A stretch of 64,000 nucleotides of DNA from positions 1 through 64,000 of the forward strand of contig JABJQG010000005.1 in the NCBI GenBank assembly GCA_018663505.1, given 5' to 3'. How positions within the stretch are numbered: position 1 is the stretch's first letter; each line of letters starts with the position of its first letter. This document shows, piece by piece, positions 31,261 to 33,262 of this stretch. The notes below the pieces were generated by a model, which searched no databases, was not told the DNA's origin, and saw nothing but the letters and a program-made list of their open reading frames with translations. The position numbers were made by a program, and so were the translations under genes. This DNA comes from Pseudobdellovibrionaceae bacterium (lineage in GTDB: Bacteria; Bdellovibrionota; Bdellovibrionia; Bdellovibrionales; UBA1609).

Positions 31261-32226
31261 ATGAAAGTTATTTTAGTTTATAATGGTTATACACCAAAAT
31301 CTATTGCCATGCTGAAGTCTAATAGACAGTTGAAAGTAATTGTTTATCAAAATCAAAAAGAGTTTGATCAGTATATTTCTGATTCAACCATAGTTCTCAT
31401 TCGATCAAATACACAGGTGCACGAGAAACTAATATTAGGGGCGAAAAATTTAAAATTAGTAGTCACTGCCACCAGTGGTTTTGATCATATAGACTACTCG
31501 TGTTGTATGAAAAACAATATTAAAGTATTATACACGCCAAATGCAAATGTACAAAGTGCTGCAGAGTTAACTATTGGACATATGTTAAATATAAGTAGAA
31601 AACTAACTCAAGCACAAACCTCCTTGTTTAATGATCGATGGCGCAGCCCGGATTTGTTTGCTAGTAATCTGGGTGGAAAAAATTTGGGTATTGTAGGTTT
31701 AGGAAGAATTGGCCAAAAGGTTACTCAAATAGCTCAAGCTATTGGGATGAAAGTTGCGGCTTATGATCCCTATATAGAGCACTCCATGTTTCAAGCTTTA
31801 AATGTAGAACCTCAGGGGTTTATGGAGCTTTTAAGGAATTCAGATGTACTGTCGCTGCATGTGCCTTTAACTAAAGAAACCTTTGAAATGATTAATGCAA
31901 AAACACTTGTGGAGGCGAATACGGATTTGATTTTAATTAATGCCTCCAGGGGGCAAGTCATCAGAGAGCCAGATCTAATTCAGTGGTTGCAAAAGAAAAA
32001 AATAAAAGCCGCGGGTTTAGATGTTTACCACAAAGAGCCTTTAGTTAAAGATTCGGAATTGAAACAGTTGAAAAATGTATTTTTAACTCCACATATTGGT
32101 GCCTTTACGGAAGAGGCTTACGTAGAGGCCTCTGAGGATGCAGTTGCTAAAGCTCTTAGGTTTATTGATTCAGGTGAGTTGAGGGATGAGTTGCCATTGG
32201 ATCAAGCTTGGGCGAAGTTTTTGTAA
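31261..32226 (+). CDS. serA: D-3-phosphoglycerate dehydrogenase-like 2-hydroxyacid dehydrogenase
   Basis: A 321-residue NAD-dependent D-2-hydroxyacid dehydrogenase. NAD-binding GIVGLGRIGQKV, and the catalytic Arg (INASRGQVI), Glu (DVYHKEP) and His (LTPHIGAFTEEAY) are all present. It lacks the C-terminal ACT domain of long SerA, so feedback control by serine is not expected through that domain. Adjacency to a class V aminotransferase supports serine synthesis, but other hydroxyacids remain possible. Confidence 0.82.
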   Translation: MKVILVYNGYTPKSIAMLKSNRQLKVIVYQNQKEFDQYISDSTIVLIRSNTQVHEKLILGAKNLKLVVTATSGFDHIDYSCCMKNNIKVLYTPNANVQSAAELTIGHMLNISRKLTQAQTSLFNDRWRSPDLFASNLGGKNLGIVGLGRIGQKVTQIAQAIGMKVAAYDPYIEHSMFQALNVEPQGFMELLRNSDVLSLHVPLTKETFEMINAKTLVEANTDLILINASRGQVIREPDLIQWLQKKKIKAAGLDVYHKEPLVKDSELKQLKNVFLTPHIGAFTEEAYVEASEDAVAKALRFIDSGELRDELPLDQAWAKFL

Positions 32227-32271
32227 GTTTAGGATGTTGTGCTTCAATGGGACCTTTCTATCCTTGGGAGA

Positions 32272-32472
32272 TCGGGCCTAAAGGCAGCCCGAACCTGCCA
32301 ATTCTCCCACATCGTGTGGGAGAATCTATTGAATGAAATGGACTCAGTTTGTCTCGAGTATTAATTTTTTTAGATCTAATGGCACTATGCCATTAGATTG
32401 CGGTGCTCGAGGCTGCAAGCCTCGATTGTCAGGATGCATAAATCCCAATGGAAACACAATGTTCAATCCTGA
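32272..32472. other. Run of five stable hairpins, possible structured RNA
   Basis: Within about 200 bases between serA and mazG lie five inverted repeats: 32272-32277/32287-32292 (6 bp), 32301-32311/32315-32325 (11 bp, loop TCG), 32374-32383/32389-32398 (10 bp), 32407-32414/32418-32425 (8 bp, loop GCA), and 32429-32435/32466-32472 (7 bp). None is followed by a T-run on either strand. A minus-strand open frame across it lacks protein-like features. It may be a small RNA, a folded 3' end, or a non-autonomous mobile element. Confidence 0.5.
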
Positions 32473-32497
32473 TAAACCCACAGACGCCAAATAAACT

Positions 32498-33262
32498 TTA
32501 TTTAATCCTTTTCCAGTACTCATCTTTTTCCAACTGATTAAGAGAAAGAAAATCTTCGCCCTCTTGTTCAATAAGTTCTTTCATGGCAAGGTATCGCTTT
32601 TCAAATTTACTGTTAGCTTTTCTTAAGGCTTGCTCGGCCTCTATGTTCATGTGTCTGCCCAGTTGTACTAGGCTAAATAGTATGTCGCCGAATTCCTCTT
32701 CCATATGATTCTTGTTCTTTTCTGCCTGAGCCTCTTTAAATTCTGATATTTCTTCTAAGACTTTTTCTTGAACTTCTTCTGTGTTGGACCAGTCGAATTT
32801 TTGTGCTTTTGTTTTCTCTCCTATTTTTTGGCTCACTAAAAGTGGAGAAAGTGTTTTGCTAATATTAAATCCAGGACGTTTCTTTTTATTTTCTTTGGCT
32901 TTTATATTCTCCCAGTTTTCGTGGACTTCCTCGAGGTTTGCATCTAAGTCGTCAAAAACATGGGGGTGTCTTCTTACCATTTTTTCGCTGATAGTTTGAA
33001 TCACATCCTTAATATTAAAATTATTATCTTGTCTCGCTATTTCGGAATGAAGTACCACTTGTAGGAGTAGATCCCCTAATTCGCTTTTAATTTCGTTTGA
33101 GTTGTTCTCCTCGATGGCCTCTGCCAATTCATGAGACTCTTCTATGGCCCAGCGTATTAAGGTCTGGTGCGTCTGTTTTTTGTCCCAGGGACAGCCCTCT
33201 GGGCCTCTTAACTTTTCAACAATTTGTACAAAATCCTGGAAGTTATAGGCAGTTTGAGGCAT
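32498..33262 (-). CDS. mazG: Nucleoside triphosphate pyrophosphohydrolase MazG
   Basis: A 254-residue enzyme with two tandem MazG domains. The first has GPEGCPWDKKQTHQTL, the metal-binding AIEESHELAEAI and ELGDLLLQVVLHSEIA; the second has LEEISEFKEAQ and EEFGDILFSLVQL. It converts NTPs to NMPs and pyrophosphate, clearing damaged nucleotides and in E. coli lowering ppGpp. It is the full-length form, divergent from pgpH with 79 bases between. Confidence 0.95.
   Translation of the reverse strand: MPQTAYNFQDFVQIVEKLRGPEGCPWDKKQTHQTLIRWAIEESHELAEAIEENNSNEIKSELGDLLLQVVLHSEIARQDNNFNIKDVIQTISEKMVRRHPHVFDDLDANLEEVHENWENIKAKENKKKRPGFNISKTLSPLLVSQKIGEKTKAQKFDWSNTEEVQEKVLEEISEFKEAQAEKNKNHMEEEFGDILFSLVQLGRHMNIEAEQALRKANSKFEKRYLAMKELIEQEGEDFLSLNQLEKDEYWKRIK

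Follow-up and report, generated by a model that had tools for sequence, protein, structure and literature searches.

Between a serA-like gene and a mazG gene in the 64,000-nucleotide stretch of DNA analyzed here (the window), five perfect hairpins are crowded into about 200 bases of non-coding sequence. What such a cluster represents is the question raised by this locus, for which the original prediction offered three answers: an unrecognized RNA, a palindromic mobile unit, or an mRNA 3′ structure shared by the two convergent genes. Our analysis points to the second, and we consider it likely that the hairpins belong to a copy of a non-autonomous, palindromic, REPIN/MITE-like mobile family of the Y1-transposase type that is orphaned in its own genome.

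The hairpin cluster in the window

All five stems were found where they had been placed, one of them being 11 bp long rather than 10 bp, and the convergent neighbors named for the gap are borne out. On the left, a 2-hydroxyacid dehydrogenase gene (serA-like, + strand) has a stop that ends at 32226, and on the right, mazG (− strand) has its stop at 32498. The suspicion that this density of stems exceeds chance also holds. When perfect stems (6 bp or longer, loops of 3–9 nt) were counted in 200-nt segments moved in 20-nt steps, the observed stem sum was reached in 5 of 3190 steps, all 5 overlapping the hairpin region, which is the densest perfect-hairpin cluster of the window. Folded as RNA, positions 32260–32480 give −82.5 kcal/mol, whereas shuffled sequences average −55.5 (z −5.9; none of 200 as low), and the opposite strand also folds strongly (z −5.4). 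As predicted, T-runs are absent: neither a promoter-like nor a terminator-like pattern was found in 32100–32650. Rfam returned no match at gathering score across the 64-kb window and thus lends no support to the suggested unrecognized RNA.

Comparison with the other copies described below suggests that the feature exceeds the span first reported, extending over approximately 32222–32481, or ~260 bp. Of the two ends, the left is placed with less confidence, its match to the terminus being weak. With these limits, the serA stop codon (32224–32226) falls inside the left end of the element, and the mazG stop lies 17 nt past the right end. The element is without coding capacity; a 75-aa ORF that runs across it is a mechanical frame without support. 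Its parts are as follows.

32222–32481, no strand: whole element, copy of a dispersed family; approximate limits from terminus matching
32222–32233: match at the left end, TGTAAGTTTAGG against the family terminus TATGGGTTTATGAGTGGG; weak
32222–32270, + strand: left arm, type i, ending in ..CTATCCTTGGGAGA (arm comparison)
32253–32328, + strand: left half-unit (inner arm, HP1, and HP2); covariance model R1, 86.9 bits
32272–32292, + strand: HP1, 6-bp outer hairpin, stem 32272–32277/32287–32292 (stem search)
32301–32325, + strand: HP2, inner hairpin of 11 bp, carrying the family loop (A/G)TCGT (stem search, alignment)
32329–32370, no strand: AT-rich spacer of 42 nt (position between the half-units)
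32371–32442, − strand: right half-unit, inverted (inner arm, HP4, and HP3); covariance model R1, 58.2 bits
32374–32398, − strand: HP3, inner hairpin of 11 bp in the right half (stem search)
32407–32425, − strand: HP4, outer hairpin of 8 bp in the right half (stem search)
32427–32481, − strand: right arm, type ii, its reverse complement ending in ..GCATCCTGACAA (arm comparison)
32429–32435/32466–32472: 7-bp stem with a 30-nt loop (stem search)
32468–32481: match at the right end, CCTGATAAACCCAC in reverse complement, against the family terminus TATGGGTTTATGAGTGGG

The window copy is among many with degenerate arms, the left of type i and the right of type ii. Both arm types are also present in G082, a genome from another family of the same order. 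In other copies, the loop of HP1 is the insertion site of a probable IS481-family element.

A dispersed family of inverted half-units

A BLASTN search for further copies, the check proposed with the original prediction, was positive: positions 32260–32480 gave 42 matches in the window's own genome (3.78 Mb, 72 contigs). Of the three options, the palindromic mobile unit was thus the right one, with dozens of copies in this genome and, in a relative, half-units that flank transposase genes. A unique non-coding RNA is ruled out by the same dozens of copies. Read from 39 of the 42 BLAST places and the window copy, together with their flanks, a single architecture emerges (arm–HP1–linker–HP2–spacer–HP3–linker–HP4–arm), in which the right side is an inverted relative of the left. 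Full copies are about 260–290 bp long and gene-less, and consist of two inverted half-units around a spacer of ~42 nt. Each half-unit comprises a terminal arm, an outer hairpin, and an inner hairpin whose loop reads (A/G)TCGT, and covers about 75 positions. Covariance model R1, built on an alignment of 68 half-units, detected at least 126 of them in the own genome at E ≤ 0.1, with 150 of 725 first-look candidates scored. These 126 occupy 71 places as 55 adjacent pairs and 16 singles, several of the latter being cut by an IS or by a contig end. Orientation is head-to-head in 54 of the 55 adjacent pairs, with a spacer of 39–49 nt in 48 of the 54.

The spread of the family was followed in three sets of genomes. 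Within the taxonomic family, a DNA search matched 1 of 47 genomes, namely the window's own. Across 140 genomes of the order, the own-genome model matched 5 and model R2, which includes relatives, matched 13, leaving 127 without the family; the R2 matches in G008, G028, G071, G072, G095, and G132 are weak (27–30 bits) and may include chance ones, and those in G096 and G070 were looked at individually. In a sample of the phylum, 12 of 368 genomes matched, all within the order, under filters that were stricter than in the order search and that lost G028. High copy number is seen in two genomes only, the window's own and G082. When 85,000 species genomes were searched, a strict DNA pattern gave no matches and a looser one gave nine. 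Of these nine loci, L121 (Bdellovibrio sp. qaytius) alone scored well with the model (32.9 bits); scores were low at L119 (14.0 bits, E 0.085) and L120 (11.2 bits, E 0.48), and at E ≤ 1 the model did not match the remaining six. The few neighbors common to G082 and the own genome are in different arrangements or belong to different families. No neighbors of the element were found to be conserved across genomes save at L108 and L109 (G101 and G092, two species of one genus), where it lies between genes that, read by eye, we take to be rpsG and fusA. The copy at this position is an old, retained insertion.

Copies are concentrated at the 3′ ends of genes. With neighbors called from mechanical ORFs (240 nt or longer), 52 copies divide into 27 with convergent neighbors, 21 with neighbors in the same direction, and 4 with divergent neighbors, compared with 6, 53, and 30 of 89 background gaps taken from the flanks of the same loci. 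The 52 places exclude contig-end copies with no second neighbor and one place inside an ORF. The third option of the original prediction, an mRNA 3′ structure of convergent genes, therefore fits the position of most copies, and may describe a secondary effect or use of the element. Ordinary terminator-like hairpins with T-runs stand just outside the copies at L010, L018, L025, and L028, which makes a need for those copies as terminators there improbable.

A covariance search, also proposed as a check, was positive in that the stems covary, yet covariation here is not in itself proof of an RNA, as G·U is nearly absent (4 of 1155 cells). In the alignment of own-genome half-units, whose members are kin so that stem cells are not independent events, 98.3% of cells are paired, compared with 78.3% in shuffles and at most 48.3% with partners slid. 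Two-sided changes occur in 12 of 18 pairs, and the covariation score is 0.601 versus 0.229 in shuffles. The cross-genome alignment is 94.8% paired, with two-sided changes in 14 of 18 pairs. Leaving out the loop-closing pair, 1133 of 1155 stem cells are Watson–Crick, 4 are G·T, 13 are A·C, and 5 are other combinations. The near absence of G·T suggests that the stems are maintained by DNA hairpins or palindrome correction to a greater extent than by selection on RNA. The asymmetry between G·T and A·C was discarded as a strand test, as there are too few mismatches (4 versus 13). The arms were compared in 44 of the 54 head-to-head pairs, those with enough flank, and the two arms within a copy resemble each other more closely than arms taken from different copies (0 of 10,000 permutations), the own partner arm ranking first in 11 of the 44. 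The private changes common to both arms of a copy suggest palindrome correction or identity at birth.

These observations bear on the strongest rival explanation, in which the family is a structured RNA, either an mRNA 3′-end stabilizer or a bidirectional terminator-like block, that is kept because it serves the upstream genes. The prevalence of convergent over divergent neighbors, the strong folding of both strands, the covarying stems, and the rpsG–fusA position occupied in two species of one genus would all be in keeping with such a role. The composition of the stems is not: pairing that is almost only Watson–Crick is not what is expected for a selected RNA. Nor does the family correspond to an Rfam family; the window copy shows no terminator pattern with a T-run, and neighbors of the element are unconserved between genomes apart from rpsG–fusA. 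Its absence from 127 of 140 relatives indicates, moreover, that there is no general need for it. We therefore regard this explanation as unlikely.

Termini and transposases

Conservation among full copies ends beyond the terminus TATGGGTTTATGAGTGGG, as judged from 45 termini of other copies, and the terminus pattern gave 42 matches at no more than 3 mismatches versus 2 for a reversed control pattern. Two full-length copies share 90% identity along 291 nt, with similarity ending at the arm ends. The most alike copies reach 90% at full length and 94% over part of it; there is no near-identical pair and hence no sign of recent movement. For a comparison of occupied and empty sites, the genus is represented by one genome. 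Two loci, L058 (C6:12456–12517) and L074 (C29:10467–10563), carry mini-palindromes of the outer arms alone from which the hairpin core is absent. Another long, near-perfect palindrome of different sequence, with more than 130 bp per side, occurs at L084:1500–1830 (C16:89798 region) and is possibly a second palindromic family.

Long inverted arms and a defined terminus are also what a MITE of a classical DDE IS with terminal inverted repeats would have, in which case the internal hairpins would be incidental. Consistent with, for example, insertion at TA, most of the 45 termini have this dinucleotide immediately outside TGGG, either as a target duplication or as part of the terminus itself. However, no IS with this end was seen among the terminus matches listed (30 of 42 loci examined), the hairpins and inner arm are the parts that are conserved across genomes, and the genes that lie between such ends are Y1 and not DDE genes. 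A DDE origin is accordingly somewhat less probable still than a structured RNA.

The Y1 genes in question are those of G082; in all, 29 Y1 loci from G082, G117, G101, and G092 were scanned with the combined model. Half-units adjoin 8 of these, all 8 among the 12 loci of G082, a count that leaves out a match at L187 (13.8 bits, E 0.1). At L196 and L199, a 171-aa Y1 gene lies between inverted half-units on both sides (type I). The other six genes are copies of one 191–196-aa unit that has a single half-unit, about 300 bp upstream of the Y1 gene, and none on the other side (type II); the gene is readable in five of the six, and the proteins are 89–95% identical where readable. Because six of the eight associated genes are copies of one unit, there are effectively two independent associations, and most half-unit scores near the G082 genes are weak (16–19 bits). 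L136, also in G082, still has the two ends of the L199/L196 unit and the 5′ flank of its gene, but the gene itself is gone; by this comparison of sequences, L136 is a transposase-less deletion derivative of that unit.

In G082, the genes at L196 and L198–L207 make up a divergent Y1 branch with the two arrangements, type I and type II. Read by eye, all 16 of its proteins have the HUH motif (HxH), and 15 of the 16 have the aligned Tyr. Their Pfam Y1_Tnp scores (25.1 and 24.1 bits) are narrowly above the cutoff of 23. The NCBIfam REP model scores 22.1 bits against a cutoff of 80, and the IS200 cutoff is also far off. A PDB search with one Y1 protein gave nothing useful.

The window's own genome holds Y1 genes of another kind: PF01797 identified 10 places, RAYT-like, several with their own inverted repeats at the gene ends (at L050–L057, repeats of 27–39 bp). 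A repeat motif of these genes, GGTACGCCGATACTTTTTGCGAC-like, also occurs beside the L074 mini-palindrome. That these proteins mobilize the family is very improbable, as their flanking repeats are unlike the element (no match better than E 0.001) and none of the 9 loci scanned has a half-unit beside it. A tblastn search over 414 kb of own-genome loci gave no match to type I or type II, and genes of the G082 branch are absent among the own genome's Pfam matches. A cognate transposase could nevertheless have been missed, either as a divergent gene or as one in an assembly gap.

For the Y1-dependent mobile family that we favor, the half-units would be the ends recognized, as single-stranded hairpins, by a Y1 transposase of the divergent G082 branch. 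This enzyme would have spread the miniature copies in trans and would now be absent, or undetected, in the window's genome, and copies would survive mainly where promoters and coding regions are unharmed.

The family is itself a target. An IS of 1.27 kb, complete at L030:1–1283 (C56 of the own genome), encodes a 384-aa transposase that matches Pfam LZ_Tnp_IS481 (33 bits; cutoff 22.2) as well as rve_3 and rve; NCBIfam transpos_IS481 is the best model for the IS, at 184.5 bits, below its cutoff of 224. Many own-genome contigs end in this IS (contig ends L088–L105), and the assembly is broken by it at the outer-hairpin sites. A search with one end region of the IS gave 18 places, of which a junction script accepted 17 rows. 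L100 repeats L090; the row that was rejected, L104, differs in that its loop lacks one base and, judged by eye, represents the same site. In 17 of 17 distinct junctions the IS sits at the loop side of the outer hairpin, and it was not found elsewhere. Right-side IS flanks start with AAGG, AGGG, ACGG, or GGGG and left-side flanks end with AAGG, AGGG, or GGGG, and these matching tetramers make a 4-bp target duplication likely, although no copy with both flanks was seen.

Comparison with known systems

Several ISs, including IS1397, ISKpn1, ISPpu9, and ISRm22, likewise use a palindromic repeat (REP) as target. REP-targeting ISs of the IS3, IS110, IS4, IS256, and IS5 families are named by Tobes and Pareja (2006; PMC1525189), whose text has no mention of IS481, the probable type of the IS found here. 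The IS described above provides a natural case of strict palindromic targeting beyond the five families of that survey.

The element shares with the REP/BIME/REPIN repeats and their RAYT (TnpA-REP) proteins a dispersed, intergenic, palindromic, and often head-to-head organization. Its distribution around genes is also like that of REPs (Di Nocera 2013, PMC3733652), which are found where genes end, including the gaps that separate convergent genes, and are linked to Y1 HUH proteins (PMC3733652; Quentin 2018, PMC6006769). A REP unit, however, is one hairpin of 20–40 bp, whereas each end here has two hairpins and a long arm, and the REP tag, GTAG or CGTC at the foot of the hairpin, is absent. In alignment A1, GGGAGA leads into HP1 and a CGCA-like linker into HP2. 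The sequence CGTC is confined to the HP2 loop, where many own-genome copies have it and most G082 loops lack it. Of the features of a REP, then, head-to-head pairs are present, and the short-palindrome unit, the tag, and an own-genome RAYT flanked by the repeat are absent. RAYTs and the flanked proteins of G082 also represent separate Y1 branches. The element works like a REPIN or MITE but is not filed as a REP, since the defining REP tags are missing.

Other Y1 systems also resemble the family in layout. TIRtrons (TIRYT), for which a motif GGGGWSAS is reported, likewise have a Y1 gene between long inverted repeats and dispersed gene-less relatives (PMC3733652; compared by description); the ends of the present family are double-hairpin half-units. 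TnpA-Y1 class 3 is rare, with several atypical structures by the gene and high copy number, as here, and has a reported 5′ foot of CnGA plus Y-motif; this likeness, too, is by description (PMC6006769).

It is conceivable, although we hold it more doubtful than not, that these observations describe a Y1 (HUH) system in which symmetric double-hairpin half-unit ends with long arms are recognized by a divergent transposase branch, and in which the miniatures have become standing genome-wide 3′-end structures in one predator-type lineage, parasitized by an IS481-family element that recognizes the outer-hairpin loop. If the Y1 link is true, single-strand transposases gain a new end architecture of two hairpins and an arm per end. 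No description of such repeats was found in the open-access literature for this order, which includes Bdellovibrio sp. qaytius. The family also offers a data set for telling RNA-level from DNA-level reasons for covariation.

MITEs are gene-less repeats of 70–300 bp with inverted ends that lie near genes (PMC3733652), and the element is gene-less, inverted-ended, and within this size range. A candidate autonomous parent with the same ends occurs in G082, and none was found in the own genome. ERIC, NEMIS, RUP, YPAL, and Nezha are like the element in their size, inverted ends, lack of a gene, and position near genes, but, compared with ERIC-type MITEs, the element has four internal hairpins and a putative Y1-type parent in G082.
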